Shown here: in pieces, positions 209 to 61,374 of the stretch
How the letters are laid out: each line of letters begins with the position of its first letter
Numbering within the stretch: position 1 is the first letter of the stretch
Assembly (NCBI GenBank): GCA_022799355.1
Contig: JAAWOG010000004.1
Coordinates: 1 to 64,000, forward strand
Length of the DNA: 64,000 nt
Direction: 5' to 3'
From: Lachnospiraceae bacterium
Lineage (GTDB): Bacteria; Bacillota; Clostridia; Lachnospirales; Lachnospiraceae
Notes under the pieces: generated by a model
The model's database searches: none
What the model was told of the DNA's origin: nothing
The model's input: the letters and a program-made list of their open reading frames with translations, nothing else
Position numbers and translations under genes: made by a program

Positions 209-1345
209 TCACAGGCAGCTCTGATAAACCTCCCGAATCTCCTCCCTGCTCAGCGGTACATAACTGTTTTTTAAAAGCCTCTGCTGATGATCAACCGTAC
301 TTTGAGCAAACGGAACAATATCCTCCCGCAGGGCACCGTACTCCGCCATCTTTTTTGCCGGAAGCACTTTCTCCAGCAGTTCTTCCAACATGCCCAACGG
401 ATTCCCCGCACAGGCCGTCCCGCAGAAACCGCCCTCAGCCAGGCATTCCCTCAGAATGTCTTTCAGCTTATTAAGCTTTCCTCCCGGAGCCTTCTTTTCG
501 TACAGCTTCAGAACCGGAACAAAGAACTGATAATTGCTCTCACCGTGAGGCACATGATATTTCCCGCCGATCGCGTAAGCCATCGCATGGACCGCGCCGC
601 AGCCGTTATTGGAAAAGCCTATCCCCGCCATATTGCTGGCAATCAGATAATCCTCCGCATCATCTTTCCACACATCCCGGCCTTTTGCCGCAATCCTGCA
701 GTATCCCTTCAGGATCATTCTGACCGCCTTTATGGAATACATTTCGGAAAAATCGGTGGCTGCCGGGTTCAGGTAAGATTCCACCGCATGAACCAGCGCA
801 TCGATGGAACTGGTGGCAAACACTTTATACGGAAGGCTTTCCAGAAACTCCGGGATCAGCACCGCCGCATCCGCAAACATCGCCGGGGAAACCATTCCCT
901 GCTTTGTTCCCATTTTTGTCCTGTTCAGGACGGAGATATTCGTAACCTCACTGCCCGTCCCGCAGGTAGTCGGTATAATAATCAGTTCTTTCCCCTTTTT
1001 CAGCGATGCCATATTCTGATACATCTCATCGATCGTCTCACCGCCTTTCACCGCCAGCACTTTGGCGATATCGATGATCGTGCCGCCGCCTACCGCGATG
1101 ATCCTCCGCGCATCATATTTTCGCACTTCCTCCAAAATAGCCTCTGCCATCACATCGGTGGGCTCACCTGTCCCATATTTCTCCTGAAAAACCACCCCGC
1201 ACTGCAGGCCTTTTGCCGCCATGATCGGATTATATATATATTCATTTGTTAAAATTACGTCGCTTTTCCCTAACTCGTACTCTGCCGCAAATTCCTGAAA
1301 GGTATTACAAAATTGAATCTCAGGTTTTATAAAAAACTGATTCAT
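209..1345 (-). CDS. Iron-containing alcohol dehydrogenase, 4-hydroxybutyrate dehydrogenase-like
   Basis: This 378-residue group III iron-dependent alcohol dehydrogenase closely resembles clostridial 4-hydroxybutyrate dehydrogenase, including the KYGTGEP and IIPTTCGTGSEVTNIS segments as I remember them. The NAD-binding GGGT is at residues 86-89. The expected metal ligands are D182, H186, H253 and H267 (the last in HVPHGE). The start is the ATG at 1345: a GGAGG lies 8 nt upstream, and the longer reading would begin at a GTG inside the ribosome-binding site. It is the last gene of the TRAP operon. It probably interconverts an acidic or anionic aldehyde and its alcohol; in this context the substrate may be an aldehyde released by the upstream transaldolase-like protein rather than succinate semialdehyde. 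That link is inference. Confidence 0.85.
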   Translation of the reverse strand: MNQFFIKPEIQFCNTFQEFAAEYELGKSDVILTNEYIYNPIMAAKGLQCGVVFQEKYGTGEPTDVMAEAILEEVRKYDARRIIAVGGGTIIDIAKVLAVKGGETIDEMYQNMASLKKGKELIIIPTTCGTGSEVTNISVLNRTKMGTKQGMVSPAMFADAAVLIPEFLESLPYKVFATSSIDALVHAVESYLNPAATDFSEMYSIKAVRMILKGYCRIAAKGRDVWKDDAEDYLIASNMAGIGFSNNGCGAVHAMAYAIGGKYHVPHGESNYQFFVPVLKLYEKKAPGGKLNKLKDILRECLAEGGFCGTACAGNPLGMLEELLEKVLPAKKMAEYGALREDIVPFAQSTVDHQQRLLKNSYVPLSREEIREVYQSCL

Positions 1346-1371
1346 AGTTATTTCCTCCACATAGGCGCAGA

Positions 1372-2457
1372 TTACCTTCCCAGCTTTTCTCTCACAAGAG
1401 ATACTATTTCTTCACCTGCCACATCCGCTTTTTCATCCCAAATCACTTTTCCGGCTTCCGTGAATGCCGCTCTCTGTTCTTCTGACAGATGTGTCACTTC
1501 CACACCGGAATTCTCTATGCTGTCCCATGCCTTCGCTTCTGTCTCCGCACATAACTTTCGTACGTTTGTCACAAAATTATCCATCTCCTCATCTACGATC
1601 TTCTGCAGATCCTCCGGCAGAGAGTTATAGAAATCACGATTGATAAATACGATCTGCAGGTTCGCATTCGGATTGACATCCGTCGCAAATTTCTGAACCT
1701 CACTGAACTTATTCAGATCAAACAGTGTCGAAGCCACGAACGCTCCGTCAACGGTGCCCTGCTGCAGCGCACTGAACACTTCTCCCCAGGCCATGGGTGT
1801 TGCGTTTCCTCCCAGTGCATTGATCGTAGATACATACAGTTCCGCCGTGGAAGTACGAATCTTAAGCCCTGACAAATCTTCTGGCGATGCAACCGCACGC
1901 TTGCTGTTACAGATAAGCTGCCATGAATTTACATAATTAGAATACACTTTCAGCGAAGAGTTTTCCTCTATCTGTGCGGAAACATCACTCCAGAAATCCG
2001 GATCGTCCATGATCTGGTACATTTCCTCCGAGGACTGGAATAAAAACGGATAATCCCAGATGTAAAGCGCCTTTACGCCGATGCTCTCCGCTAGTGTATA
2101 GTTCGGGCAGTTCCCGATCTGTGCCGAATTGGACGCCACAAGCTGTAGTGTTTCCGTATCACCCGAACTGATTGTTCCGCCGCTGTACACCTCCACCTGA
2201 ATCCGCCCCTCGGAACGTTCCTCAAGCGCCTCTTCCAGCATATGGTAGGCAATCACCTGAGGATCGCTCTCATTCTGTGTCTGTGGAATAATAATTGTAT
2301 AGGTTTCACCTTCACTTGTATTTTCTTCCCCTTTAGCTGTCTCCGCCGCTGCCGTACTCTCCTCTGCTTTTGGCGCCTCCTGTGCCTTTCCGCACCCCGC
2401 TGTCACAAGCATTGTCAAAACCAGCAAAACCACCGTCAATGTTCTTTTTTTCTTCAT
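1372..2457 (-). CDS. dctP: TRAP transporter substrate-binding lipoprotein (DctP family)
   Basis: This is a 361-residue extracytoplasmic binding protein of a tripartite ATP-independent (TRAP) transporter. A signal peptide ends in a lipobox with the lipid-modified cysteine at C22, followed by an Ala/Glu-rich linker to about residue 50. The DctP fold follows, with the family-typical segment SPEDLSGLKIR carrying the conserved arginine (R201) that normally salt-bridges the carboxylate or other anionic group of the ligand. A GGAGG sits 10 nt before the ATG. It should deliver an organic acid, sugar acid or sulfonate to the DctQM membrane complex encoded upstream. A 125-nt gap separates it from dctM and holds a small 7-bp hairpin (2489-2513), which may allow the binding protein to be expressed at a different level. 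Confidence 0.9.
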   Translation of the reverse strand: MKKKRTLTVVLLVLTMLVTAGCGKAQEAPKAEESTAAAETAKGEENTSEGETYTIIIPQTQNESDPQVIAYHMLEEALEERSEGRIQVEVYSGGTISSGDTETLQLVASNSAQIGNCPNYTLAESIGVKALYIWDYPFLFQSSEEMYQIMDDPDFWSDVSAQIEENSSLKVYSNYVNSWQLICNSKRAVASPEDLSGLKIRTSTAELYVSTINALGGNATPMAWGEVFSALQQGTVDGAFVASTLFDLNKFSEVQKFATDVNPNANLQIVFINRDFYNSLPEDLQKIVDEEMDNFVTNVRKLCAETEAKAWDSIENSGVEVTHLSEEQRAAFTEAGKVIWDEKADVAGEEIVSLVREKLGR

Positions 2458-2582: not shown

Positions 2583-3863
2583 TTAGCTGACAAGAAACAG
2601 TGTTAACTGTGGAACAAAAGTAATCAACATCAAATCAATAATTAAAATCACAATAAATTTCATCACCCATCCCAGTAAAGCCTCCATCTTCGTATCCGCC
2701 AGTTTGGACGCGATAAACAAATTGAGTCCCACCGGAGGCGTCACCAGCCCTATCGCCAGATTGACACACATGATCAGACCGAAATGAATCGGATCTACCC
2801 CAACGGACTGTGCGATCGGCAGCAACAGCGGTGTAAAGATAAATACTGCTGCCAATGTTTCCAGAAACATACCGGCAATAAACAGGATCACATTAAATAA
2901 CAGTAAGATCACGATCCTGCTGCTTGTTATGGATGTGATAGCCCCTGCAATGGCATTCGGTACCCCCATCAACGTCAGCACCCGTCCAAAAGCCAGCGCG
3001 ATACTCGCCATGATCAGGCACATCCCGGTAGTCTTCACGGTATTGTTCAGACACTGAATAAACTTTTTCAGGTCCATCTCCCTGTAAATAAAGACACTTA
3101 CAAATAATCCCCAGACACAGGCAACCACTGCCGCCTCGGTGGGTGTGAATATTCCGCCGTAAATACCTCCGAGGATAATGATCGGAACAAGCAGCCCCCA
3201 GATCGCGGACAAGAACTCTTTTCCCAGTGCTCTCCAGTCAAATTTTCCTTCCCGCTTCGCCGGCTGAAAATGATGTTTTTTGGATACCGCAAAGTTCAGC
3301 AGCATCAGAGATAACGTCATCAAAAGCCCCGGTCCTATTCCTGCCGTAAAGAGCTTGGTTATGGAAACTCCCGCCGTGATCCCGTACATCACCATCGGAA
3401 GGCTGGGTGGAATGATCGGCCCCAATGTTGCGCTGGATGCGGCAAGTGCTCCCGCATAGTTCTTATCATACTTTTCCCTGATCATGGCCGGTACCATAAT
3501 ACCGCCTACCGCCGCAACCGTAGCAACCCCAGAACCGGAAATAGCCGCAAAAATCGCGCATACAAACACCGTGATATACCCTAACGATCCGCTGGTCCTT
3601 CCGAATATCGTATTCGCAAAAGAAACCAGCCTCTCGGCAATTCCTCCGATACAAAGTATCTCGCCCACCAGAATAAAGAACGGTACTGCCAGCAGGGTGA
3701 AAGAATCGCTTCCGGCATAGAGCACTTGTATATAGTAAGACATCGGCACAATTTCAAATGCCACAATCCCTACCATTGATGCGATTCCCAGCGAAAAGAC
3801 GATGGGAACACCCAAAAATACACAGACCATAAAAACAATAAAGATAATCAGTCCCGGATTCAT
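2583..3863 (-). CDS. dctM: TRAP transporter large permease (DctM family)
   Basis: This 426-residue polytopic protein has about 11-12 hydrophobic segments and the DctM signatures, for example SGSGVATVAAVGGIMVPAM near the middle of the first half and GLVTPPVGLNLFIAS near the C-terminus. It is the sodium-coupled transport subunit that takes substrate from DctP. Its first 4 nt overlap the end of dctQ (ATGA), implying translational coupling. Length and layout are normal for the family. Confidence 0.93.
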   Translation of the reverse strand: MNPGLIIFIVFMVCVFLGVPIVFSLGIASMVGIVAFEIVPMSYYIQVLYAGSDSFTLLAVPFFILVGEILCIGGIAERLVSFANTIFGRTSGSLGYITVFVCAIFAAISGSGVATVAAVGGIMVPAMIREKYDKNYAGALAASSATLGPIIPPSLPMVMYGITAGVSITKLFTAGIGPGLLMTLSLMLLNFAVSKKHHFQPAKREGKFDWRALGKEFLSAIWGLLVPIIILGGIYGGIFTPTEAAVVACVWGLFVSVFIYREMDLKKFIQCLNNTVKTTGMCLIMASIALAFGRVLTLMGVPNAIAGAITSITSSRIVILLLFNVILFIAGMFLETLAAVFIFTPLLLPIAQSVGVDPIHFGLIMCVNLAIGLVTPPVGLNLFIASKLADTKMEALLGWVMKFIVILIIDLMLITFVPQLTLFLVS

Positions 3864-4369
3864 CCCTCATCCTCCTTTCCATTCCTTCTCTTTTCCAGAA
3901 ACCCTTTCAGTTTCCCGCATTTCACCTGTACCATACGAATATCCATCAGTAAAAATCCAAGGGGTATCGCCGCATAAATATAGCCGATCGGAATCTTTAA
4001 GCCGGGAGCGATGCTTCCCATTGAAAAGATCTCCTTCGTGTAGAAAGTGCTGACATAGACCATCAGCAGGTTAAACAAAAACCATATCCCGTCCCCTATC
4101 TCCAGGATAATCGGACGTATCTTCTTCGGCCAGATCAAGAGAGCCGCATCGATCCGTATATGCGCTTCATTTTTTACTGCGAAACTTGTCCCCAGAAAGA
4201 TCAGCCAGATCAGACAGTAACGTCCCACTTCCTCCGACCAGCTTGTCGCATTGTCAAACACATACCGCAGAACCACCTGAACGAAAAGAACCACCAATGA
4301 TACAACCAACGTAACATAACATATATACAGTTCAAAATTGTCTATCACTTTTAATATTGCTTTCTTCAT
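3860..4369 (-). CDS. dctQ: TRAP transporter small permease (DctQ family)
   Basis: This 169-residue protein has four predicted transmembrane helices (about residues 15-35, 47-67, 88-108 and 128-148) and the DctQ-type segment WSEEVGRYCLIWLIFLGTS. It forms the membrane complex with DctM. The C-terminus is a basic, charged tail. It follows the transaldolase-like gene after 30 nt and overlaps dctM by 4 nt. A separate Q and M pair rather than a fused QM protein is the standard arrangement. Confidence 0.9.
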   Translation of the reverse strand: MKKAILKVIDNFELYICYVTLVVSLVVLFVQVVLRYVFDNATSWSEEVGRYCLIWLIFLGTSFAVKNEAHIRIDAALLIWPKKIRPIILEIGDGIWFLFNLLMVYVSTFYTKEIFSMGSIAPGLKIPIGYIYAAIPLGFLLMDIRMVQVKCGKLKGFLEKRRNGKEDEG

Positions 4370-4399: not shown

Positions 4400-5710
4400 T
4401 TATCCCCTGCCTGACACGCTGTTTAAAAAGGAACGCTGGTATGTGTAAATAGTCGGCGAACTGGTAAACCTTCCGAAATAGCCGGGCTCACAGGTAAGAA
4501 CTATACGCTGTTTCATATCCGCAAATTCCGGTTCCACAGATAACTTGTCAATATCGTAATACATCTGGTCACTCTTTGTATTACATACGATCAGACGTGT
4601 ATCCGGCAGATTCGCCTGTTTCAGTACCCGCAGACTGTGGCGGACACTGTCCAGCCCGTCATACCCTTCCTTGGAATAGTAATTCCGATAACGGACAAGC
4701 CTCCTTGCCTTTTCCTCCGCACCCGCAAGATCCGTATCATCTGATGAGAGCATATCCGATTTCATCATATAGTCATGCAGCATCTTACGGTATACGGCAT
4801 CCCCGGTCTTATCCAGATTATCGATATGGCTCGCAAGACCGCTTGTCTGATCGTGTCTTTTTTCCACGAAAGCATTGATAAAATATGGTTTTGCAAGTAG
4901 TGCCAGCGCCGTCTGATGAGGTTCCCCCATCAAGGTAAAATTCACCTTATACCCCTTTTCCTGAAGCCGGTATGCCAGATTATGCCCATAGAAGAAATCT
5001 TTAGACGTCCCTTCCTCAACCGCAGGATATTTTCCCTTTAAAAAGTCTTCCACATTTCCAGGATTCAGCGGTCCCGTATGCGGCACTTTTACCACCAAAC
5101 GGTAAGAAGTGAGAATTTCCTCAAAACGGGCGACTTCTTCCTTCAGCTTCTCTTCCGGCGCAAACGGATCATCAAATTCAACACTGATATCCACTCCTGC
5201 CCCAACCAGCCTTCCAAGTTCTTCCAGCACCTCATAGCGGTCTTTAAACTGATTGTTTTTGTTTGCCTTCGGATTGTTTAAAAACTGTTCATAAATGATT
5301 GCCGGATTGGTCGTCAGGTTGGCAATAAAGTATTTCATGGTCTCTACTTCAAACGGATTTGCCGTATTGGCAGAAAACAGCATATTTGTCGGACGCCGCT
5401 TCCCGTTTTTTTCAAAAGCAATATCACGCACAAGATTAACCCGTACACACCCGTCCTCACCGTATATCAGTTCCTTTCTGAACCCCGCCGGCGTCTCTTT
5501 TTCCGGAACCCGGAATGTTTTTATCACTTTCCGGAATTCATCCGTTACACCCACGTATTTCATGTAGGCTGACAAATCCATAAAATCTTTCAGTGGCAGT
5601 TCCGTATCGCAGATCCGTTCATACAGCTCTGTTTCGGTCCCCTCAGCCACCGATAGCTGACCGGTACGCACCAGTGCGCTTATGGTACAGCTTGTTTCCC
5701 TAAACTTCAT
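4400..5710 (-). CDS. Transaldolase-superfamily protein with N- and C-terminal extensions
   Basis: This is a 436-residue protein whose middle part (about 108-290) reads as a transaldolase / fructose-6-phosphate aldolase barrel. In order I see SANTAN (113-118), TTNPAI (133-138), SVEFD with E178, VVKVP with the probable Schiff-base lysine K208, VNFTL (256-260) and the FVEKR strand end with R285. The aspartate that normally begins the first motif (ADT or LDT) is replaced by N115. Roughly 105 residues precede the barrel and 140 follow it; ordinary transaldolases are about 220-320 residues in total. It is the first gene of a TRAP-transporter and dehydrogenase operon under a DeoR regulator. A good ribosome-binding site (AAGGAGG, 7 nt) fixes the start. 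Probable role: C-C bond cleavage or a related Schiff-base reaction on the imported compound or its derivative. The substrate is unknown. Confidence 0.7.
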   Translation of the reverse strand: MKFRETSCTISALVRTGQLSVAEGTETELYERICDTELPLKDFMDLSAYMKYVGVTDEFRKVIKTFRVPEKETPAGFRKELIYGEDGCVRVNLVRDIAFEKNGKRRPTNMLFSANTANPFEVETMKYFIANLTTNPAIIYEQFLNNPKANKNNQFKDRYEVLEELGRLVGAGVDISVEFDDPFAPEEKLKEEVARFEEILTSYRLVVKVPHTGPLNPGNVEDFLKGKYPAVEEGTSKDFFYGHNLAYRLQEKGYKVNFTLMGEPHQTALALLAKPYFINAFVEKRHDQTSGLASHIDNLDKTGDAVYRKMLHDYMMKSDMLSSDDTDLAGAEEKARRLVRYRNYYSKEGYDGLDSVRHSLRVLKQANLPDTRLIVCNTKSDQMYYDIDKLSVEPEFADMKQRIVLTCEPGYFGRFTSSPTIYTYQRSFLNSVSGRG

Positions 5711-5740
5711 TTTGCATCCTCCTTTATCTTATTATAGTTT

Positions 5741-5789
5741 GTTAAAGTTCGTTTTGTATTTATAAAATAAACTTTAACGCACTTTAAAG
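5741..5789. promoter_or_regulatory. Candidate DeoR-type operator
   Basis: A perfect 9-bp inverted repeat GTTAAAGTT (5741-5749) and AACTTTAAC (5770-5778) is followed at once by a third related half-site ACTTTAAAG (5781-5789). The sites lie between the divergent DeoR gene and the transaldolase/TRAP operon and overlap that operon's probable -10 element. DeoR-family proteins typically bind repeated half-sites in such positions. That the neighbouring DeoR protein is the ligand is inference. Confidence 0.6.
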
Positions 5790-5799
5790 AGAAAGTCAA
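5771..5799 (-). promoter_or_regulatory. Probable promoter of the transaldolase/TRAP operon
   Basis: On the minus strand TTGACT (5794-5799) and TAAAGT (5771-5776) are separated by 17 nt, matching a sigma-A promoter. The -10 box lies inside the second operator half-site, consistent with repression by occlusion. Confidence 0.5.
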
Positions 5800-5890
5800 G
5801 TACTTTATTTGTTTTTTATAGTATTTTTCCCTTGTATTATTGAAAAGAAACTGATATGCTTATAAAAAACAGAAAAAGAAGGTAAACGCC

Positions 5891-6664
5891 TTGAGAATGA
5901 AAGAAAAACGTCTTGAAGAAATCACAAAATTCCTCGGTTCAAACGGCAGTGCCGAAGTATCACAGCTCAGCGCACTCCTTAAAGTGACTGAAAAAACCAT
6001 TCGTCAGGATCTCGTGGCTCTGGAAGAAAAAGGAATCCTGGAACGTGTCCACGGCGGTGCAAAAATAAAAAACAATATAAACGATATCTACCCGTTCCCC
6101 AAAAGAAGAAGGGATCAGAACCTGCAGTCCAAGCGCTCCATTGCCAAAGCCGCCCTCTCTTTTATCGAGGATGGAGATATTCTAATTCTGGACTCCGGTT
6201 CTACCACTTTGGAACTGGCTAAAATACTGGACAAAAAAGTCTCGGTCATAACGAACGATCCCATTATTTCCTATACGCTGATCAGCCGGGATAACGTCCT
6301 TTTATTCTGTACGGGCGGGGAGCTTCGCCGCGAAGGCGGGCTTGCATATACGGGAACAAGCGTGATTAAGGCTTTAGATAAACACCACGCAACAAAATGC
6401 TTTCTGGCCGCCACCGCCTTCGATATCAAGCACGGTGCCATGGTATTTTCTTCCCAGGAGGGTGAGATCAAACGCGCTTATATCGAAGCCAGCGATAAAG
6501 TCTTTTTAATGATCGACCACAGTAAATTCAACCAGTCCGCACTCTATACGTATGCTTCCACCTCAGATATTCAGGACATTATAACGGATACCCAGATAAG
6601 CCGAAAGGATATTGAAGAGCTTCAGGCCAGACATATCAATGTACATATCGCAGAACAGATATAA
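5891..6664 (+). CDS. DeoR/GlpR-family transcriptional regulator
   Basis: This 257-residue regulator has an N-terminal helix-turn-helix (about 5-60, including VSQLSALLKVTEKTIRQDL and the family-typical RVHGGA segment) and a DeoR C-terminal sensor domain with LDSGSTT (about 101-107), a TNDP segment and CTGGELR, which normally recognises a phosphorylated sugar. TTG at 5891 is taken as the start because AAGAAGG lies 8 nt upstream; the next ATG (5897) would be 14 nt away. It is divergent from the transaldolase/TRAP operon and most likely represses it. A phosphosugar inducer would suggest that the operon's substrate is converted to a phosphorylated intermediate somewhere, although the operon has no kinase. 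Confidence 0.85.
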   Translation: MRMKEKRLEEITKFLGSNGSAEVSQLSALLKVTEKTIRQDLVALEEKGILERVHGGAKIKNNINDIYPFPKRRRDQNLQSKRSIAKAALSFIEDGDILILDSGSTTLELAKILDKKVSVITNDPIISYTLISRDNVLLFCTGGELRREGGLAYTGTSVIKALDKHHATKCFLAATAFDIKHGAMVFSSQEGEIKRAYIEASDKVFLMIDHSKFNQSALYTYASTSDIQDIITDTQISRKDIEELQARHINVHIAEQI

Positions 6665-6708
6665 AAAACAGCCAATCGGTCCTTTCCTGAACCGATTGGC
6701 TGTTTTTT
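6663..6708 (+). terminator. Terminator of the DeoR gene (bidirectional)
   Basis: A 13-bp perfect stem (6668-6680 / 6691-6703, 10-nt loop) is flanked by A residues on the left and T residues on the right, immediately after the stop codon of the DeoR gene. Confidence 0.85.
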
Positions 6709-6757
6709 ATTCACTCTTTTACCGCCCCCTACACGGCTGCAAATCGTAACCTGTTCC

Positions 6758-6792
6758 AAAAAGCCCGCCGGCATAAGCTGACGGGCTTTTTC
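6758..6792 (-). terminator. Terminator of the CdaR-FtsEX-EnvC-CtpA operon
   Basis: A hairpin with a 10-bp stem (6758-6767 / 6782-6791) carries a T-run in the minus direction and lies about 20 nt past the ctpA stop codon. It can also work in the plus direction. Confidence 0.75.
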
Positions 6793-6810
6793 CCTGAAAT
6801 ACTTTATATG

Positions 6811-8046
6811 CTATCCATGCAGCCTCTTCCCCAAATACTCCTTAGCTGCCTCCAACTGATTATCGATTCCTTCCTCCCCGTAGTAAGCCTCCGCGTCAAA
6901 CTCCACCACAATGTCCGGCTCAATGCCCTTTCCATGGATATTATTCCCCTTCGGCGTAAAATAGCCGTCGGTGGTGAGTTTTATCGCGGAACCGTCCGAA
7001 AGCGCTATGATCTTCTGGACAATGCCCTTTCCGTAAGTGGTCGTTCCCATAACCGTCCCCACACCATAATCCTTGATCGCGCCTGTCAGCACTTCCGCAG
7101 CGCTGGCGGAACCGCCGTTGACCAGTACCACCATGGGAATCTCTATTTCTTTTTTACCATCGCATGTATACTCCACACGCTTTCCGTTCTTATCCTCCGT
7201 ATAGACCACCAGTCCCTCAGGCAGAATCTGCTGTCCGACGGAAACCACCGCATCCAAAAGCCCGCCGGGATTTCCCCGCAGATCCAGAACCAGCGCCTTT
7301 GCACCGGAGCCCTTTATCACCGCGTACCCTTCCGTAAACTGATCCACCGTCACATCCTTAAACTCCGAAATCGCAATATACCCGATCTCCTCATCCAGCA
7401 TCCGGGTAGAAACCGTGGGGCGGTCCACCTTACGGCGCACCACATCCTGGTCAAAAACTTCTTCTCCCCGCACCAGTGTCAGTGTTACATGGGTACCTTC
7501 CTCACCTTTGATCAGTGCCGTCACCTCATCCAGCGTCATCTGAAATGTCTTTGTGCCATCCACGGCATAGATGATATCTCCCATCCGAAGGTCCGCTTCC
7601 TGAGCCGGTGTTCCTTCGATCACGCCGCTCACATAGGGTGTTTCCGTCTCTTCATCAAGACTCACATAGGCGCCGATGCCATAATATGTCCCCTCGTTTT
7701 TCTCAAGCTGCTCGTCTAACTCCTCCGCAGTGTAATAAGCGGCATATTTATCATCCAGCGCCTCGATCATGCCGTTGCAGATCCCCTTCTGGAGCGCCTC
7801 TTCCTCCGCATCTCCGAAGTAGAATCTTTCGTTAACCATCGTTTCAATGGCTGCTATCTTGCTGATCGTCTCGCTGTTTACGACCGTACCTTCCCCTGAC
7901 ATACCGGAAACAGTCGCCTCTTTTACCCTGTTGTTGTCATATAAAATTTTTCCTGTCCATCCCCCGCAAAACACAAGCGCGGTTGCCAATATACCGGTTA
8001 CAACGCCAACGCCATAGCCGTTTGATTTCTGCTGCTTCCCTTCCAA
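6811..8046 (-). CDS. ctpA: C-terminal processing peptidase, S41 family
   Basis: This 411-residue membrane-anchored serine protease has an N-terminal transmembrane helix (about 11-31), a linker, a PDZ domain (about 120-205) and an S41 catalytic domain. GGSASAAEV with the predicted nucleophile S315 and TYGKGIVQ with the general base K340 give the usual 25-residue Ser-Lys spacing. Such proteases cleave secreted or membrane proteins near their C-termini outside the cell. The gene follows the EnvC-like hydrolase gene after 36 nt, so a role in processing wall hydrolases or their activators is plausible; that is inference from context. Confidence 0.92.
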   Translation of the reverse strand: MEGKQQKSNGYGVGVVTGILATALVFCGGWTGKILYDNNRVKEATVSGMSGEGTVVNSETISKIAAIETMVNERFYFGDAEEEALQKGICNGMIEALDDKYAAYYTAEELDEQLEKNEGTYYGIGAYVSLDEETETPYVSGVIEGTPAQEADLRMGDIIYAVDGTKTFQMTLDEVTALIKGEEGTHVTLTLVRGEEVFDQDVVRRKVDRPTVSTRMLDEEIGYIAISEFKDVTVDQFTEGYAVIKGSGAKALVLDLRGNPGGLLDAVVSVGQQILPEGLVVYTEDKNGKRVEYTCDGKKEIEIPMVVLVNGGSASAAEVLTGAIKDYGVGTVMGTTTYGKGIVQKIIALSDGSAIKLTTDGYFTPKGNNIHGKGIEPDIVVEFDAEAYYGEEGIDNQLEAAKEYLGKRLHG

Positions 8047-8082
8047 AACCGATACGCCACCTTCTTATATAGTTTATATACC

Positions 8083-9312
8083 CTACTTCAGATACCCCCA
8101 GGGGCTTACATAACTCCCGTTCTTTCGTACACTGAAATGCAGATGGGGACCGGTTGACCTGCCGGTAGAGCCCACCGCCGCTATCTGCTGTCCTTTTGTC
8201 ACAAGATCGCCCTTTGAGACATAGAGCGCGGATGCATGCATATATATCGTATACAGGCTGTCCCCGTGATCGATCATAATATAATTTCCCATGCTCCCGC
8301 TGTAGGCTGCCGCTACCACTTCCCCGTCATAGGCCGCCAGGATCGGACTGCCGTTTGGCGCCGCAAGGTCCACACCGTTATGAAACTGCTGCACACCCAG
8401 CGTCGGATGGATTCGCTCCCCATACTCATCGGAAATTCTGGTCATGGACGGAGCCGGGAACGCAAACATGCCGCCGTCATAGGTCAGCTTTCTCCCTTCC
8501 TCTTCCGCCAGCCGCTTCCTTTCCGCGGCAACTGCCGCCTCCAGAGAAGCTATGATCTCGTTCTGCGCTTTGATATCAGCCTCATATTCCGCAATGGCTG
8601 CCGCTTTATTGTTGATATCCCCCTGCTTTGCAACAATTTCCGTCTCCTTATCGGAGATCAGCTGTGCCAGAGATGCTTCCTCCTTCTCCACACCCGCCTT
8701 TGCCTCATCCAGAACTTCCTTCTCCGCATCCAGTTCCTGTTTGCAGACTTCCACGTACTCCCGTATCAATATATATTCTTCCAGCTTCTGGTTATCATAA
8801 TCCATCACCAACTGGATATAATCAATTTTATTCAGCAGATCGGCAAAAGATTCTGCACTCAGTATTGTTTCCAGATAATAATCATCGTTCTGCTCATACA
8901 TCATCACGATCCGCTGCTTCATGGCCGCATACTGCTCTTCCTGTTTTAAAATGGCCGCCTCCAGCTCTCCTTCCGTCTCCCGGATCTCTTCTTCCTTCGT
9001 TGCAATCATGCCGTTGAGCTCGGAAATCTTTTTCTGGATATCTGCCAGATTATTGTCCAGCGCCACCACATAACTCTCCAGACTTGCCTTCTCTCCTTCC
9101 AACTGATCCTTAAGTGCCTTGATATCCGTCAGGGCTGACTGAAGCTGTTTCTTCTCATCCTGCGCCTCGGATATCTGCCCCTCCTTTTCACGGATACTGT
9201 CAGAAGTAATAGAGGAGAGCGAAACCGCTTCCGCCTCCCCTGTCTGTGAAAGGATCACCGCAAGCAGCAGTAAGATCCCCATGCACTTTTTAAAATATCC
9301 TCCGTGTCTCAT
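8083..9312 (-). CDS. EnvC/PcsB-like secreted protein with coiled coil and M23 peptidase domain
   Basis: This 409-residue secreted protein has a signal peptide (about 1-29), a long coiled coil in two blocks (about 38-140 and 172-272) rich in Glu, Lys, Leu and Ala, and a C-terminal LytM/M23 domain (from about 283). The zinc ligands and catalytic residues are present: H311 and D315 (HNGVD), H359, and H390/H392 (HLHF), so this copy should be an active endopeptidase rather than a degenerate activator. It lies directly downstream of ftsE-ftsX. In other bacteria FtsEX binds the coiled coil of EnvC, PcsB or CwlO-like proteins and drives septal wall cleavage; the gene order supports the same partnership here. 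Confidence 0.88.
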   Translation of the reverse strand: MRHGGYFKKCMGILLLLAVILSQTGEAEAVSLSSITSDSIREKEGQISEAQDEKKQLQSALTDIKALKDQLEGEKASLESYVVALDNNLADIQKKISELNGMIATKEEEIRETEGELEAAILKQEEQYAAMKQRIVMMYEQNDDYYLETILSAESFADLLNKIDYIQLVMDYDNQKLEEYILIREYVEVCKQELDAEKEVLDEAKAGVEKEEASLAQLISDKETEIVAKQGDINNKAAAIAEYEADIKAQNEIIASLEAAVAAERKRLAEEEGRKLTYDGGMFAFPAPSMTRISDEYGERIHPTLGVQQFHNGVDLAAPNGSPILAAYDGEVVAAAYSGSMGNYIMIDHGDSLYTIYMHASALYVSKGDLVTKGQQIAAVGSTGRSTGPHLHFSVRKNGSYVSPWGYLK

Positions 9313-9350
9313 TTCCTATCCTCTGTGCATATATTTTTACTGCATTCACA

Positions 9351-9386
9351 GACATAATATGTTCCGTGGCGGTATCATATTATGTC
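9351..9386. repeat. Inverted repeat between ftsX and the M23 gene
   Basis: A perfect 11-bp inverted repeat (arms 9351-9361 and 9376-9386, 14-nt loop) sits in the 129-nt gap between ftsX and the M23 gene. There is no T-run on the minus strand, so an RNA-processing or attenuation hairpin, or a protein-binding site, is as likely as a terminator. Confidence 0.5.
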
Positions 9387-9441
9387 CTTTTGTCAGGATG
9401 ACACACCCTCACATGCGCACCCCGCCTTATCCGCAACCGGA

Positions 9442-10338
9442 TTACACCCGCAGATGCTTCCTCACCGTAATAAAACTACCCAGAAAGCCGATCCCTACGC
9501 CGATCCCCAAAGACAGGGGCAGCAAAATATGAAAAATCTCCGTCACCGGCAAAAACGTCAGCAGATTGGTCAGGATCGAGAAACGCTCCAATACATACGC
9601 CACCGCTTTATTATATACAAAATAAATGATTGCCAGCGGAATCCCTGCCCCCACCAGTCCGATCAGAATGCCCTCTATGACAAACGGGGAGCGCACGAAA
9701 AAGTCCGTAGCCCCGATGTATTTCATAATCGTAATCTCTTCTTTTCTCACATTGATACCGATCGTCACGGTATTGCTGATCAGAAACACCGAAACGCCAA
9801 GCAGGATAGCAATCAGCCCAATGGAAACATAGCCCAGCAGCGAGTTAAAACCTGTGAGCACATCAGCCGTCAACTGTGAACGGTTTACTTTTCTGACTTC
9901 CGGCATGGACTCCAGATAGGTGACCAGAGAATCCTGCATTGAAACATCACTCAGATAAGCCTTATAGTTGGCACAGTTTTCCAGCGGATTTTCCGTGAAG
10001 CCCTCCGCGTATTCCGGCGGATATCCCGCCTTCCAATCCTCCCATGCCTGATCTGCAGAAATATATTCCACCTCGGAAACTTCCATCCTGGAAGCGATCT
10101 TCTGTCCGATCTCCTGTATGACCGCATCCTCCGTCCCGTTCTCGAAAAACACGGTAACGCAGACTCCTTCTTCGGCATTTTCCACCATATTCTGGAGATT
10201 GACCACCACCGAATAAAAAATACCGAACATAAACAGACAGGCGGTTATCGTAGCAATCGACGCCAGCGAAAAAAGCTTATTGCGGAAAATATTACGGAAG
10301 CCCTGTTTGATCGTGTAGAAAAATGTACTAATCCTCAT
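9442..10338 (-). CDS. ftsX: Cell division ABC transporter permease FtsX
   Basis: This 298-residue protein has one N-terminal helix (about 20-42), an extracellular domain (about 45-165) that normally binds the wall-hydrolase partner, and three further helices (about 170-195, 220-245 and 265-290). This is the FtsX topology. The ATG at 10338 is chosen because AAGGGAG lies 9 nt upstream; this makes the start overlap the end of ftsE by 11 nt. It acts with FtsE as a mechanotransmitter rather than as a substrate transporter. Confidence 0.92.
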   Translation of the reverse strand: MRISTFFYTIKQGFRNIFRNKLFSLASIATITACLFMFGIFYSVVVNLQNMVENAEEGVCVTVFFENGTEDAVIQEIGQKIASRMEVSEVEYISADQAWEDWKAGYPPEYAEGFTENPLENCANYKAYLSDVSMQDSLVTYLESMPEVRKVNRSQLTADVLTGFNSLLGYVSIGLIAILLGVSVFLISNTVTIGINVRKEEITIMKYIGATDFFVRSPFVIEGILIGLVGAGIPLAIIYFVYNKAVAYVLERFSILTNLLTFLPVTEIFHILLPLSLGIGVGIGFLGSFITVRKHLRV

Positions 10339-11068
10339 CGATATATGCTCCCTTCTCCTCATCACTTATGATAACGCCCTTTTTCAGCGTTACCACCCGC
10401 TTCTCCATCTGGTTTACAATCTCTTTATTATGGGTGACGACAAGCACCGTCGTCCCGCCCTTGTTGATTTCCTCCAGCATATTCATAATTTCCCAGGAAT
10501 TTTTGGGATCAAGATTTCCGGTGGGCTCATCGCATAAAAGCAATGTCGGCTCATTGACAAGCGCCCTTGCAAGCGCTACTCTCTGCTGCTCACCGCCGGA
10601 AAGCTGTTTCGGCTTCGCCTTATATTTTCCGGCAAGCCCCACCGAGGCAAGAATAGCCGGCACGTTTTTCCGCATCTGCTTGGTGGGCGTCAGCACAATC
10701 CTCTGGGCAAAAGCCACATTTTCATAAACATTCCTGTCCTTCAGCAGACGGAAATCCTGAAACACAATACCGATATTACGTCTGAATTCCGGTATCTTCC
10801 GATGTCTGATCCTGTTCAGATCATATCCCATCACCTTCACGGTTCCCTCCGTTGCCGTCAGTTCCCTGAGCAGCAGCTTGATCATCGTTGACTTTCCGGA
10901 ACCGCTGTCACCCACGATAAAAACAAACTCCCCGCGCCTGATCCGCAGGCTGATATCGTTCAGAGCCGGAGAACCGGTCTCATAAGATTTGCTCACATTC
11001 TCAAGTACAATGATATCTTTTTCACCGACTCTTTTCTTTCGTTTCTTCTTTACTGCTTTTTCCGCCAC
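10328..11068 (-). CDS. ftsE: Cell division ATP-binding protein FtsE
   Basis: This is a 246-residue ABC ATPase with a Walker A motif GDSGSGKST, the signature LSGGEQQRVALARAL, Walker B LLLCDEPTG and an H-loop histidine in VVTHN. A 15-residue Lys/Arg-rich N-terminal extension precedes the core. The GTG at 11068 is the probable start, preceded by AAGGAGAGG. It pairs with the overlapping ftsX gene to power activation of septal peptidoglycan hydrolysis. Confidence 0.93.
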   Translation of the reverse strand: MAEKAVKKKRKKRVGEKDIIVLENVSKSYETGSPALNDISLRIRRGEFVFIVGDSGSGKSTMIKLLLRELTATEGTVKVMGYDLNRIRHRKIPEFRRNIGIVFQDFRLLKDRNVYENVAFAQRIVLTPTKQMRKNVPAILASVGLAGKYKAKPKQLSGGEQQRVALARALVNEPTLLLCDEPTGNLDPKNSWEIMNMLEEINKGGTTVLVVTHNKEIVNQMEKRVVTLKKGVIISDEEKGAYIDED

Positions 11069-11103
11069 TATGGTATTCCTCTCCTTTTAGTTCAAGTGTT
11101 ATT

Positions 11104-12186
11104 TTAATAATCAAATGTTTCCATATATTTCATATATTTTACGACCATCAGCGCAATTTTGAAGGTGATCGCGTCCTCGAATACCCTAAGGTCCAGTCCG
11201 GTCGCTTTCTGCAGCTTATCCAGTCTGTAGACCAGCGTATTCCTGTGGATAAAAAGCTGTCTCGAGGTTTCCGATACGTTCAGACTGTTCTCGAAGAACT
11301 TATTGATCGTTGTCAGTGTCTCCTCATCGAAATCATCCGGGCTCTTTCCGCCGAAGATTTCCCTGATAAACATCTTGCACAGAGGGATCGGAAGCTGATA
11401 AATCAGACGGCCGATACCCAGCTCACTGTACGCCACTACATTTCTGTCGCTGAAAAAGATCTTTCCGACATCCAGCGCCATCCGCGCTTCCTTGTAGGAA
11501 CGGCTCACATCCTTGATCTCCTTCACCACCGTACCGTAGGAAACCCGGACATTTCTCATCCCTTCCTTGACCAGAAAACTCTCGAGCGCCTTCGCCCCCT
11601 TATCCAGCTCCGCCGGAGAATCCCCCTCGCTCAGATCACGCACTACGATCACGTTATTTTCATCCACCGCCGTAACAAAATCCCTCGTATTGGTGTTTCC
11701 GCTGCGCACAATTTCAAGCACATTGCAATCCTTTGTGCTGTCCGTCTCGATGATCATCACCACGCGCCTCACATCCGCCTGAATATGCAGCTTTTTCGCA
11801 CGGCTGTAAATGTCCACCAGCAGCAGGTTATCCAGCAGCAGGTTTTTGATAAAATTATCTTTGTCAAACCGCTCCTTATAGGCAACCAGCAGGTTCTGGA
11901 TCTGGAATGCAACCATCTTGCCTACCATATAAACGTCCTCACCGGAACCTCCTGCGATCAGTATGTACTCAAGCTGCTGTTCATCATAGATCTTAAAGTA
12001 CTGATACCCCTGAATTTCCTGTGAGTCCGCCGGGGACTGGGCAAATTCCATTGCCGGCTTTTCACATTCATACATATTTACGGTTGCGGCAACTTCTTTT
12101 CCGTCCGTATCCATGATGCAAAGTTCCACTCTGGCAATTGCTTTTAACCCTTCAATCGTATTTTGTAAAATCTGGTTTGAAATCAT
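11104..12186 (-). CDS. CdaR/PucR-type helix-turn-helix regulator
   Basis: A 360-residue protein begins with a sugar-diacid-recognition-like segment (ISNQILQNTIEGLKAIARVELCIMD) and ends with the PucR/CdaR-type HTH (SLNVSETSRQLFIHRNTLVYRL, about 307-328). The ATG at 12186 is chosen because GGAGGG lies about 10 nt upstream; the longer frame adds 15 unsupported residues. It is 35 nt upstream of ftsE and probably the first gene of the operon. CdaR proteins regulate sugar-diacid use in enterobacteria, but the link to FtsEX suggests this clostridial member senses something else, possibly wall-related; the ligand is unknown. Confidence 0.75.
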   Translation of the reverse strand: MISNQILQNTIEGLKAIARVELCIMDTDGKEVAATVNMYECEKPAMEFAQSPADSQEIQGYQYFKIYDEQQLEYILIAGGSGEDVYMVGKMVAFQIQNLLVAYKERFDKDNFIKNLLLDNLLLVDIYSRAKKLHIQADVRRVVMIIETDSTKDCNVLEIVRSGNTNTRDFVTAVDENNVIVVRDLSEGDSPAELDKGAKALESFLVKEGMRNVRVSYGTVVKEIKDVSRSYKEARMALDVGKIFFSDRNVVAYSELGIGRLIYQLPIPLCKMFIREIFGGKSPDDFDEETLTTINKFFENSLNVSETSRQLFIHRNTLVYRLDKLQKATGLDLRVFEDAITFKIALMVVKYMKYMETFDY

Positions 12187-12499
12187 CTTTTCCCTTCCCT
12201 CCTGCTGATACGTTGCATTTTTGTTATGCAAGATGCTTCATTATACATTTTCAACAATACATTTTCACCCCATAAAAGGCTTTTTTCACAACCTATTTTT
12301 TATTTTAAAACAAATGCACAAATAAATCTACCTCTTTTTCAAGTTTTTTTGTCTGTTTTTTTAGCTATTTCCCAAATTTTGTATATTTTTAACAATAGTC
12401 AACCTATACAAACCCCAAATATTCTTCCGTCAGCGTATCATGCCCTGCACAACAACAGGCTCTTTTCTTTCTATCAGAAAAGAGCCTGTCCCTCATATA
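12187..12499. other. 313-nt intergenic region, AT-rich
   Basis: There is no convincing gene. The part nearest the CdaR-like gene (about 12230-12420) is very AT-rich with runs of A and T on the minus strand and probably holds that operon's promoter, but I could not pick a single convincing -35/-10 pair. The left-facing end of the TagA-like gene contributes a hairpin at 12455-12489. Confidence 0.5.
12455..12489 (-). terminator. Hairpin after the TagA-like gene
   Basis: A perfect 14-bp stem (12455-12468 / 12476-12489, 7-nt loop) begins 11 nt past the stop codon. The minus-strand sequence that follows is only partly T-rich (TGTTGTTG), so termination is likely but may be weak. Confidence 0.6.
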
Positions 12500-13219
12500 T
12501 TATTCCGAATCCGAACCGTCTGCCTTTGTCCCTTCATTCCGCTCCTTTTCTTTTGCATGATAATACTCGGTCATCTGCCGCTGAAAGAGGTGATGATACC
12601 ACTTACTGAGCAGCTTTTTTAAAAAGGGAACTTTTCTGCCGCCAGGCACCATCTGATAATCCAGGGCAAGCCATATGTCCGCATTCAGAATCTTTTTCAT
12701 TCTGTCCATCAGCTTCCCCTGGCGTTCAAATTGTATCCTGGATATAATCGCAACGGGCGAAATGGCATTTATCCTGTTCGCCTCGTCATCCCATTCTTCC
12801 TGTATACCGCTTATGACGCCTCTGCCCGCGAACGTCAAATCCTCCCTGAGCAATTTTAAATCCGCCTCCAGCTTTTCCAGTTCTTCCTCCGATTCCGCAA
12901 GCAGATACAGAGCCTTTTTCCCTTTCCCAAGGCGCTTTAAAACCGCTTTGATATACTCCTGATTTTCCACCTCATGAATGCGGTCCTTTGCCCTGATACC
13001 TGCCTGCCTTACAATTTCCGGATCGCTCCAGATAATCAGATCCGCATCTCCGATCCATGTTTTCCATTCCGCAAAGGTGCCGGCCCCCACCAGAATCTTT
13101 GCGGAAATAAACAGAACCGTATTCAGACTGCCGCTGCCCAGGAACCTGTCCGTAATGCTGATAGATTCCCGCAGGGAATAGTCCGTCAGATTCATCCCCG
13201 GTAAATTAATTTTTTGCAT
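12500..13219 (-). CDS. Divergent WecG/TagA/CpsF-like protein
   Basis: This is a 239-residue cytosolic protein. Three stretches fit the WecG/TagA/CpsF glycosyltransferase fold in order: a predicted acceptor-pocket stretch with DADLIIWSDPEIVRQAG, a Rossmann-like segment LYLLAESEEELEKLEADL followed by FAGRGV, and INAISPVAIISRIQFERQGKLMDRM matching the family's C-terminal strand-helix. Similarity is weak and the usual TPN and GxPxQE signatures are not intact, so activity cannot be assumed. The ATG at 13219 is chosen because AAAGGGG lies close upstream; the longer frame runs through the promoter region. If active, it would transfer an N-acetylhexosamine-type sugar in wall polymer synthesis. Confidence 0.45.
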   Translation of the reverse strand: MQKINLPGMNLTDYSLRESISITDRFLGSGSLNTVLFISAKILVGAGTFAEWKTWIGDADLIIWSDPEIVRQAGIRAKDRIHEVENQEYIKAVLKRLGKGKKALYLLAESEEELEKLEADLKLLREDLTFAGRGVISGIQEEWDDEANRINAISPVAIISRIQFERQGKLMDRMKKILNADIWLALDYQMVPGGRKVPFLKKLLSKWYHHLFQRQMTEYYHAKEKERNEGTKADGSDSE

Positions 13220-55074: not shown

Positions 55075-56553
55075 TTAATTTGTCATAACCATCCGAACCG
55101 CCTCTTTCCAGCCTGCATAAAGACCTTCGCATTGTTCTCTGTCTAATTCACTTTTATAACTTTTTCTGTTCATTTTGTCAAATATTTTTTCATCATAAAT
55201 TCCAAGCGACAATCCTGCCGCATAGGCGGCGCCAATCCCGGAGAGTTCTTCTGCCTCCGGTACCCGCACCGGAATCCCCAGCATATCGCTCTGAAACTGC
55301 ATCAGGTACATATTTTTTGTAGGTCCGCCATCCACCCTGAGTTCTCCAATCTCAATGCCGCTTGCCTGATGCATTGCCCTCACGATATCCGTAATCTGAT
55401 AAACAATGCTGTCAAGCGCCGCTTTTACAATCTCCGCCTTCCCCGTTGTTCTTGTAATGCCACAGATTATCGCTTTCGCCTCACTGTCCCAATATGGCGC
55501 TCCCAGTCCCGAAAAAGCCGGCACAAGATAAGTCCGGTCCCCTTTTCCGGCTTTCCGCGCCAGTTCTTCGCTCTCCGCCGCGGAAGAAATTAATCCAACT
55601 TCATCTTTCAGCCAGGTGATCACGGCTCCCGTATAATTAATGTTGCCTTCCAGCACATAATTCACTTTTCCCCCCATGGACCAGGCCAGAGAAGTTACCA
55701 CGCCCAGATCCGTAAACACCGGTTTTTCTCCGATATTCATCATAATGGAAGAGCCGGTGCCATAAGTTGCCTTTATCATCCCCCTCCCAAGGCAGCCCTG
55801 CCCAAAGAGTGCTCCATGGGAGTCTCCCAACACTCCTCTGATTGGTATCGGTTTATCCAAAAAACCCTCAAAATCCGTGACACCATAATCTCCATCGGAA
55901 TCCGTCACTTCCGCCATGCAGGATTCGTCAATGCCGAACAGATCCAGAAGTTCTTTATCCCACGACAATGTTCTGATATTAAACAACTGTGTTCTGGACG
56001 CGTTTGAATAATCCGTCCTAAAATCCCGGCCTTTTGTCAGTCGGTATACCAAAAAGCTGTCTATTGTACCGCAGGCAATCTCCCCTTTTTCCGCTTTCTC
56101 TTTTACGCCCGCCACATTCCGGAATATCCAGGCCAGTTTCGCCGCCGAAAAATAGGGGGACAACTGCAGTCCTGAATACTTCTTCACTTTATCCGCAAAG
56201 CCCCGCTTTTCTATCTCCTCACAGATTGCCGCGCCTCTGGCGCACTGCCAGACAATGGCATTATATACCGGCTTCCCGCTCTCCTTTTCCCAACACGCCG
56301 CCGTCTCCCGCTGATTGCTGATACCAAGTACCGCAATATCCGCTTTGTTGATACCCGCTTTCTCCACCAGATTTTTTACTACCTGTATTGTATTACGATA
56401 AATCTCCTCCGGATCATGTTCCACCCAGCCGCGCTCATCCACTATTTGCGTATGAGGAAGGTCGCTTCTGCAAAGAAGCCCGCCTTCCTCATCAAATAGA
56501 AGAGCCTTCGTGCCCTGGGTGCTCTGATCGATCCCTAACACATATCTGCTCAT
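55075..56553 (-). CDS. FGGY-family carbohydrate kinase, glycerol-kinase-like
   Basis: This 492-residue FGGY kinase has N-terminal GIDQSTQGTKALLF and the ATP-binding YGTGSSIMM. Residues that bind glycerol in GlpK are kept: R82-E83 (NQRET), W102 (VWQ), Y134 and D244, but GDQQ is changed to GDSH. The enzyme therefore probably phosphorylates a primary hydroxyl of a glycerol-like end group, but not glycerol itself, given the transketolase and isomerase genes in the same operon. A branched ketose such as apulose fits; xylulose, ribulose or erythrulose are alternatives. Confidence 0.75.
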   Translation of the reverse strand: MSRYVLGIDQSTQGTKALLFDEEGGLLCRSDLPHTQIVDERGWVEHDPEEIYRNTIQVVKNLVEKAGINKADIAVLGISNQRETAACWEKESGKPVYNAIVWQCARGAAICEEIEKRGFADKVKKYSGLQLSPYFSAAKLAWIFRNVAGVKEKAEKGEIACGTIDSFLVYRLTKGRDFRTDYSNASRTQLFNIRTLSWDKELLDLFGIDESCMAEVTDSDGDYGVTDFEGFLDKPIPIRGVLGDSHGALFGQGCLGRGMIKATYGTGSSIMMNIGEKPVFTDLGVVTSLAWSMGGKVNYVLEGNINYTGAVITWLKDEVGLISSAAESEELARKAGKGDRTYLVPAFSGLGAPYWDSEAKAIICGITRTTGKAEIVKAALDSIVYQITDIVRAMHQASGIEIGELRVDGGPTKNMYLMQFQSDMLGIPVRVPEAEELSGIGAAYAAGLSLGIYDEKIFDKMNRKSYKSELDREQCEGLYAGWKEAVRMVMTN

Positions 56554-56575
56554 GCCTGTATTCCTTCTCCCGTTT

Positions 56576-57508
56576 TTACTGTAATATTTCTTTCACCGTT
56601 TTCGCGATGCCCTGCGCATTCAGTCCATAATAATCAAAGACCTCTCCGGATGTCCCTGTTATAACGGGTGTGTCAGGAAGTGCCAGATTGACTACTTTTT
56701 TCGGACAGGATGCCCCTATCACCTGGCTTACCATGGCTCCGAGCCCGCCAAAAGGCGCATGCTCTTCCACCGTCACAACCGCTTTTACTTTTTCTGCCGC
56801 TTTCAAAATTCCCTCTTTATCCAAAGGCTTTACACAGTACATATCCAGAACCGTTGCACCGATACCCTGTTCTTTCAGCAGATTCGCCGCATCCACCGCA
56901 GGACGCACCATCTCCCCACAGGCAACGATCAGAACATCCGCCCCTTTTGCCACCGTGGTCGCTTTATCCATGATAAACGGACAGTCCTCTTCCGTATAGA
57001 TATCCTCCACCGGATTTCTTCCCACCCGGATATACGACGGTTTCTCATCCTGCAGCAGCGCCCTTACCAGTTTCGCCGTCTGGAATCTGTCGCTGGGCAG
57101 ATACACCCGCATATTGGGGATCGCTGCCATCGCCGCGATATCCTGAGCGGAATGATGGCTCATGCCCAGCGCACCATAGCTGACGCCGCCGCTGATACCT
57201 ATCAGTGTTACATTGGTATTGGAATATGCGCAGTCCACTTTTGCCTGCTCGTAGCTTCTGGTGGACACGAAGCTTGCCGGAGATGCCGCAAAAGGCTTTT
57301 TACCACACTTTGCGAGTCCTGCCGCTACGCTCACCAGATTCTGTTCCGCAATGCCCATCTCAATAAATTGTTCCGGAAATGCCTTTGCAAAGGGCGCAAG
57401 GGACGCGCTCCCCCTGGAATCGCTGCACAGCACCACGATATTTTTATCCTCTTTTGCCTGTTCCATCAATACATCACAGATTGCCTGCCTGTTCGGTATC
57501 TTATTCAT
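56576..57508 (-). CDS. Transketolase-like protein, C-terminal subunit
   Basis: This 310-residue protein has the pyrimidine-binding and C-terminal domains of transketolase. The conserved glutamate that activates thiamine diphosphate is E55 (MGIAEQNLVSVAAGLA). The ATG at 57508 starts 1 nt after the stop of the N-terminal subunit (TAAGATG) with AAAGGAGG upstream; the longer frame enters that gene and is rejected. With the partner below it forms a two-subunit thiamine-diphosphate enzyme that moves a two-carbon unit. Confidence 0.85.
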   Translation of the reverse strand: MNKIPNRQAICDVLMEQAKEDKNIVVLCSDSRGSASLAPFAKAFPEQFIEMGIAEQNLVSVAAGLAKCGKKPFAASPASFVSTRSYEQAKVDCAYSNTNVTLIGISGGVSYGALGMSHHSAQDIAAMAAIPNMRVYLPSDRFQTAKLVRALLQDEKPSYIRVGRNPVEDIYTEEDCPFIMDKATTVAKGADVLIVACGEMVRPAVDAANLLKEQGIGATVLDMYCVKPLDKEGILKAAEKVKAVVTVEEHAPFGGLGAMVSQVIGASCPKKVVNLALPDTPVITGTSGEVFDYYGLNAQGIAKTVKEILQ

Positions 57509-57509
57509 C

Positions 57510-58334: not shown

Positions 58335-58365
58335 TTTTTTCCTCCGTTTCCGGTTCGTCAACCAC

Positions 58366-61302: not shown

Positions 61303-61374
61303 CTGCGCGTTGCGACGCGCGCCCTAATCGATTGTTGAATACGCATTTTTATTCAACTTTTCCCTCTCTTCATT

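Follow-up and report, generated by a model that had tools for sequence, protein, structure and literature searches.

A long transaldolase-superfamily protein of a Lachnospiraceae bacterium belongs to a clade with asparagine in place of the first-strand aspartate

What does a transaldolase-like protein do when the aspartate of its first barrel strand has become an asparagine? The question is raised by a reading frame, here called TAL-N, in a stretch of 64,000 nucleotides from a gut-type Lachnospiraceae bacterium (contig JAAWOG010000004.1; the window). The original prediction, made from the sequence alone, described a transaldolase-superfamily protein with a kept Schiff-base lysine, a lost aspartate and large extensions, encoded in an operon with a TRAP importer, and suggested altered chemistry or a different substrate.

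The reading frame is present, encodes 436 aa, and its product is a barrel of the transaldolase/FSA superfamily. TAL_FSA is the sole Pfam family that it matches (31.1 bits, cut-off 27), and the same family matches 16 of 16 homologues scanned, with E values up to 1. A profile built from 18 homologues aligned by hhalign, in local mode, to FSA-type proteins of related genomes (97.5%, E 6.7e-12). The expected motifs TTNP (133-136), SVEFD (E178), VVKVP (K208) and VNFTL (N257, T259) were all found, and K208, E178, N135 and N257/T259, aligned to FSA, are invariant across the 18 sequences. Among the NCBIfam models none fits the frame, which scores 15.9 bits against the FSA equivalog TIGR00875, below its cut-off of 245.95. 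Structure prediction and superposition, proposed beforehand as a check, agreed with this assignment, as an AlphaFold model built with only four sequences (pLDDT 68.5) matched 1vpx, a transaldolase, with Z 15.6 and rmsd 2.5 over 171 aligned residues, within model residues 108-416. A phmmer search of the PDB with the single TAL-N sequence returned nothing useful, plasmids gave no match and viral contigs no relative; phage TalC rows, sought for a deeper structure alignment, came from one contig only.

The extent of the barrel had to be revised. It had been placed at residues 113-290, with about 105 residues before it and 140 after, but the profile and structure matches place it at about 108-436. 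In global mode, hhalign aligned strand 1 (SANTAN with FIDTAN), TTNP, E178, K208, N257-x-T259 and strands 7 and 8 to FSA, the last two being reached past an insertion. TAL-N is composed of an N-terminal domain of about 105 aa followed by a complete barrel with two insertions (Table 1). The predicted extension before the barrel was therefore real, while the one after it was not: a separate C-terminal domain was ruled out, as residues ~353-436 are strands 7-8 and the last helix. Of the two extensions, for which separate profile searches had been proposed, the N-terminal domain gave no Pfam match, and the C-terminal part aligned to the FSA barrel within the global alignment. Modelled alone, residues 1-112 reached a pLDDT of 84.9, and fold searches of the PDB gave no convincing match to the N-terminal domain (Foldseek best E 1.2, VIA best Z 2.8), which is no proof of a new fold.

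Table 1 Features of the TAL-N locus, with positions in the window.
Feature	Position	Strand	Basis
Fe-alcohol dehydrogenase, probably 4-hydroxybutyrate-type	209..1360	-	Pfam; relatives directly precede AbfD/AbfT genes
TRAP solute-binding protein DctP	1372..2457	-	Pfam PF03480 8.7e-65
TRAP large permease DctM	2583..3863	-	Pfam PF06808 4.6e-115; TIGR00786 above cut-off
TRAP small permease DctQ	3860..4369	-	Pfam PF04290 7.5e-31
TAL-N, transaldolase-superfamily protein, Asn-type	4400..5710	-	436-aa ORF; Pfam TAL_FSA; hhalign to FSA rows; model match 1vpx
Barrel strands 7 and 8 and last helix, residues ~351-436	4403..4660	-	Global hhalign; structural match up to residue 416
Insertion 2, between strands 6 and 7, residues ~285-350	4661..4858	-	hhalign gap against FSA rows
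Insertion 1 in barrel, residues ~213-240	4991..5074	-	hhalign gap against FSA rows
Codon of Lys208, Schiff-base lysine (BmSF-TAL K89, TalB K132)	5087..5089	-	Alignment
Codon of Glu178 (BmSF-TAL E61, TalB E96)	5177..5179	-	Alignment
Codon of Asn115 (Asp6 of FSA and BmSF-TAL, Asp17 of TalB)	5366..5368	-	Profile alignment
N-terminal extra domain, residues 1-105, alpha/beta	5396..5710	-	Separate model; alignments
Candidate operator, inverted repeat TTAAAGTT...AACTTTAA	5742..5777	.	By eye, between DeoR gene and operon
Divergent DeoR-family regulator	5891..6664	+	Pfam DeoRC/HTH_DeoR

The replacement of the first-strand aspartate was borne out. In the alignment, FIDTAN of FSA is the counterpart of the strand-1 motif [DN]TAN, which puts N115 at Asp6; this placement comes from the profile alignment and not from the model, in which residues 115-151 have a pLDDT <50. 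All collected short transaldolases with an intact N-terminus have Asp at the position (IDTAN, IDDAH, ADGAN, VDSM etc.), and TAL-N lacks this strand-1 catalytic residue of transaldolase (EC 2.2.1.2). In TalB the aspartate reportedly takes part in C-C cleavage and holds the intermediate, according to work on the D17A variant, whose structure, 1i2p, was among our structural matches. That variant is reported to suffer mostly a large loss of rate, which counts against re-tuned chemistry as the expected outcome of losing the Asp. In BmSF-TAL the catalytic set is D6, E61 and K89, and the sugar is oriented by N111 and S133 (PMC11659671). By alignment, the corresponding residues of TAL-N are N115, E178, K208, N257 and N279. 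F281 aligns with F178 of TalB, the residue at which a Tyr converts TalB from transferase to aldolase (PMC3962226), and the presence of Phe would suggest a transferase-type pocket.

Is Asn115 an accident of this copy? Position 115 is Asn in 6/6 members of the window clade and Asp in 12/12 of a sister clade, both clades having a support of 100/100, and between the window and its nearest relative (locus L018, 88% identical) dN/dS is 0.04. Homologues with Asp do exist, which the original prediction had named as a point against it if this copy were an isolated mutant, but the copy is no such mutant; an isolated mutation or a pseudogene was ruled out by the clade-wide Asn and the low dN/dS. Taken together, fixation in a fully supported clade and dN/dS of 0.04 indicate that Asn115 is an old, selected feature. 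Other fixed differences between the clades accompany it, several of them at pocket positions: 134 (T/C), 280 (A vs S or T), 283 (E in the window vs R, once N), 377 (N/S) and 379 (K in the window vs E, S or A). At 283 and 379 the two clades have exchanged charges. According to the alignment, since the model is not reliable in this region, 283 adjoins the position of TalB R181, and 377/379 correspond to TalB S226/R228. The latter two belong to the TalB phosphate pocket, and changing R181 to Glu in TalB F178Y raised the affinity for a non-phosphorylated acceptor (PMC3962226, for R181).

Two of the competing explanations fare badly. TAL-N might be a catalytically silent protein retained for regulation or binding, having lost one catalytic residue and gained an N-terminal domain; we regard this as very improbable, as all 18 members keep Lys, Glu, Asn, Thr and most of the pocket unchanged and the gene is the first of a catabolic operon. 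Alternatively, Asn115 could be deamidated to Asp after translation, leaving an ordinary enzyme. Self-deamidation is known in other proteins, and all six Asn115 codons are one base away from Asp, but the next residue is Thr and not Gly, other pocket positions have changed alongside, and we know of no case of deamidation to Asp in the transaldolase superfamily, which makes this idea barely credible. Because the Asn is common to a whole sub-family with its own kinds of neighbours, the switch from Asp probably reflects a genuine shift in substrate or chemistry rather than a mutation that arose by chance. The original suggestion that a kept lysine with a lost aspartate means altered chemistry or a different substrate thus looks likely, given a monophyletic Asn clade under purifying selection in which pocket and neighbourhood changed together.

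The distribution of these long transaldolases is patchy: they occur in 13/299 genomes of the same bacterial family, while 392 genomes of its order and 398 of its phylum yielded one further full-length member each. Asp-type genes at five loci (L021, L023-L025, L041) lie beside split transketolase, RpiB, class II FBA, FGGY kinase and DeoC genes, those of L026-L030 lie in nucleoside operons with DeoC, DeoB, uridine phosphorylase-like and nucleoside ABC genes, and that of L042 has sugar-acid genes alongside. In L026-L030 the long transaldolase gene adjoins or overlaps DeoC, with DeoB, a glyoxalase-like gene and an Fe-alcohol dehydrogenase (Fe-ADH) also present. In four genomes that are 93-99% complete (G216, G175, G124 and G837) the Asp-type protein is the sole TAL_FSA protein, which fits a working transaldolase; in view of their neighbours, too, Asp-type members probably are working transaldolases. 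Neither Pfam nor NCBIfam seems to have a family of its own for the sister clade (L007-L016, L041, L042). Sulfoglycolysis, brought to mind by split transketolase and RpiB at Asp-type loci, was rejected, as the residues of SftT are not matched and the genes equally fit the pentose phosphate pathway.

A sister clade whose members look like functional transaldolases, together with the kept Glu, Lys, Asn, Thr and Phe281, speaks for the reading in which TAL-N is itself an ordinary transaldolase, or an FSA-like aldolase on sugar phosphates, that tolerates Asn115 and is merely slower. We nevertheless consider this unlikely: the Asn has long been fixed under strong purifying selection, other pocket residues have changed, the genome of the window encodes three other TAL_FSA proteins, and at the six loci examined an Asn-type gene never adjoins transketolase or pentose genes.

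The neighbours of Asn-type genes are of other kinds. L019, L053 and L054 have in common the arrangement IolM-like dehydrogenase, TAL-N, AroE-like protein, to which L019 and L054 add CoA-transferases, an AP_endonuc_2 barrel and a weakly MaoC-like protein, and L054 also a TPP enzyme. The IolM-like proteins score 206-223 bits, far below the IolM cut-off of 450, and in L020 TAL-N lies beside IolN (490 bits, cut-off 245). The AroE-like proteins fall far under the shikimate dehydrogenase cut-offs and have a catabolic setting; by inspection they keep both residues of the catalytic pair, Lys in LTMPHK and Asp in GxxLDG. L053 occupies the same chromosomal site as the window and L018, with the same DeoR gene and flanks, and has an ABC importer and three dehydrogenases where those two have the TRAP importer and lack the dehydrogenases. 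This exchange suggests that the substrate of the enzyme is an organic acid, either made inside the cell or imported.

Such cyclitol-type neighbours (IolN, the IolM-like and AroE-like proteins, the latter with their Lys/Asp pair, and the TPP enzyme), and the missing aspartate, whose part in cleavage is to handle the C4 proton, would also suit a Schiff-base enzyme that is no aldolase, such as an isomerase, a dehydratase or a lyase that opens the ring of a cyclic ketone, using Lys208 without the acid/base function of Asp. On the other hand, the donor-site residues besides Asp are those of transaldolase or close to them, and our searches gave no precedent within the superfamily, so that we give such an enzyme a minor chance.

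In the window, TAL-N lies 30 bases upstream of dctQ-dctM-dctP and the Fe-ADH gene, all on one strand, in keeping with the predicted operon with a TRAP importer. Relatives of the divergent DeoR gene adjoin TAL-N in L053 (87% identical) and L018 (61%). The half-sites of the candidate operator look similar in L018 and weak in L053. As a rule, regulators of the DeoR family respond to phosphorylated sugars, a point against a substrate that lacks phosphate. Further along (55075-59766 and 60247-62913), the window has in a row an FGGY kinase, split transketolase halves, an L-fucose-isomerase-like protein and a ribose-type ABC importer, which look like another sugar pathway using split transketolase.

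A connection to 4-hydroxybutyrate comes from the Fe-ADH, which is 78% identical to that of L018 and 74% to that of L044, both adjoining AbfD and CoA-transferase genes; in L018 the operon of TRAP importer and Fe-ADH continues with the AbfD-like protein, a putative 4-hydroxybutyryl-CoA dehydratase, and the CoA-transferase. Against the 4-hydroxybutyrate dehydrogenase model NF058672 the Fe-ADH of the window scores 106.6, below the cut-off of 500, but this model covers one lineage, so that such a function is possible for the enzyme. In the genome of the window, AbfD and AbfT are encoded on contigs other than that of the window, so that L018 and the paralogous module L044 form the basis of the 4-hydroxybutyrate link. 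One of these contigs, C128, carries AbfD, CoA-transferase and a NifU-like ORF at its end (L043, 6401-9492); its AbfD-like protein has C100, C104, H292 and C299, which have the spacing of the Fe-S ligands in 4-hydroxybutyryl-CoA dehydratase. When C128 is set against the start of the window, spacing and ends do not match L018, and the L043 module may or may not continue the window operon. L044 (contig C10:14000-33900 of the same genome) has at 5356-12768 a second module of the 4-hydroxybutyrate type, with Fe-ADH, AbfD, CoA-transferase and NifU-like ORF, behind split transketolase, a Zn-dehydrogenase, a cupin and a branched-chain-type ABC importer; there the transketolase takes the place of the transaldolase-like gene of the window operon. 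We identified no natural compound that such an enzyme would cleave into succinate semialdehyde.

How does TAL-N compare with known systems? The best structural match is to the FSA/TalC/TM0295 group, which shares the barrel, the [DN]TAN strand 1, TTNP, Glu/Gln, the Schiff-base Lys and NxT, but TAL-N is twice as long, owing to its N-terminal domain and two insertions, and has Asn for Asp. Like TalB it has the Glu (E96), the Lys (K132) and a Phe of the transferase type (PMC3962226), whereas Asn115 stands for Asp17, Asn279 for S176, and the phosphate-pocket positions 283, 377 and 379 are E, N and K. SftT (BmSF-TAL), whose D6/E61/K89 and N111 layout it resembles (PMC11659671), was the first match of our profile among PDB sequences and acts on an anionic, non-phosphorylated substrate; TAL-N nevertheless has N115 and N279 where SftT has D6 and S133, has Lys284 at W138 of the sulfonate motif, differs in length, and has no sulfoglycolysis genes nearby. 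In FSA the D6H exchange is reported to widen the donors to acetone, acetaldehyde, butanone and cyclopentanone (PMC8097096 citing Roldan 2017). The same Asp is removed there, but in a laboratory variant and for His, whereas the Asn of TAL-N is natural and clade-wide. The IolN and IolM-like neighbours recall inositol catabolism; to our knowledge the published IolM/IolN pathway has no transaldolase-like step, and the Anaerostipes inositol pathway uses IolJ and no transaldolase. Literature searches gave no account of a transaldolase-like protein associated with TRAP, 4-hydroxybutyryl-CoA dehydratase or inositol genes.

The computational observations of the fold family, the kept Lys, Glu, Asn and Thr, the clade-wide Asn, the co-varying pocket, purifying selection and the neighbours are best explained, with a probability of about 50%, if TAL-N is an aldolase or transaldolase that acts through a Schiff base, is re-tuned for a substrate that is anionic and probably not phosphorylated, and feeds a pathway with the Fe-ADH. 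The retained Lys, Glu, Asn and Thr suggest that, like transaldolase, it forms a Schiff base and uses a catalytic water: the base would form on Lys208, with Glu178 and water, and the reaction would be a retro-aldolase or transaldolase reaction splitting a ketose-type acid into a ketone fragment of three carbons or smaller and an aldehyde. In ordinary members Asp assists in moving the proton of the cleaved carbinol and holds the donor hydroxyl. With Asn115 in its place, donor or leaving group should differ from dihydroxyacetone and a sugar phosphate, and most economically the hydroxyl served by Asp would be absent or differently presented. In the window the substrate would enter through the TRAP importer, and the aldehyde may be reduced by the Fe-ADH to a 4-hydroxybutyrate-like acid; in relatives, dehydrogenases may form the acid inside the cell from a cyclitol-like compound. 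Beyond a Schiff-base enzyme of the transaldolase superfamily this account is inference, from the aldolase activity and its direction to the kind of substrate and the union of importer, aldolase and dehydrogenase in a single pathway. More tentatively, and at clearly lower odds, TAL-N could represent a natural class I aldolase lineage without the strand-1 Asp that leads a ketose- or cyclitol-derived acid into an undescribed route to 4-hydroxybutyrate and butyrate in gut and rumen Lachnospiraceae.

TAL-N is a real, conserved protein without description in the literature searched, and it is not a new kind of enzyme. Transaldolases described to date have the strand-1 Asp in their catalytic set, and interest in removing it has so far come mainly from engineering, as a trick to widen donor scope. 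A natural Asn clade and an Asp sister clade of the same unusual architecture offer a ready pair for learning what this Asp does. If the pathway reading is true, the locus would also point to a carbon source that gut and rumen bacteria use without its having been recognised, and whose use may end in butyrate.
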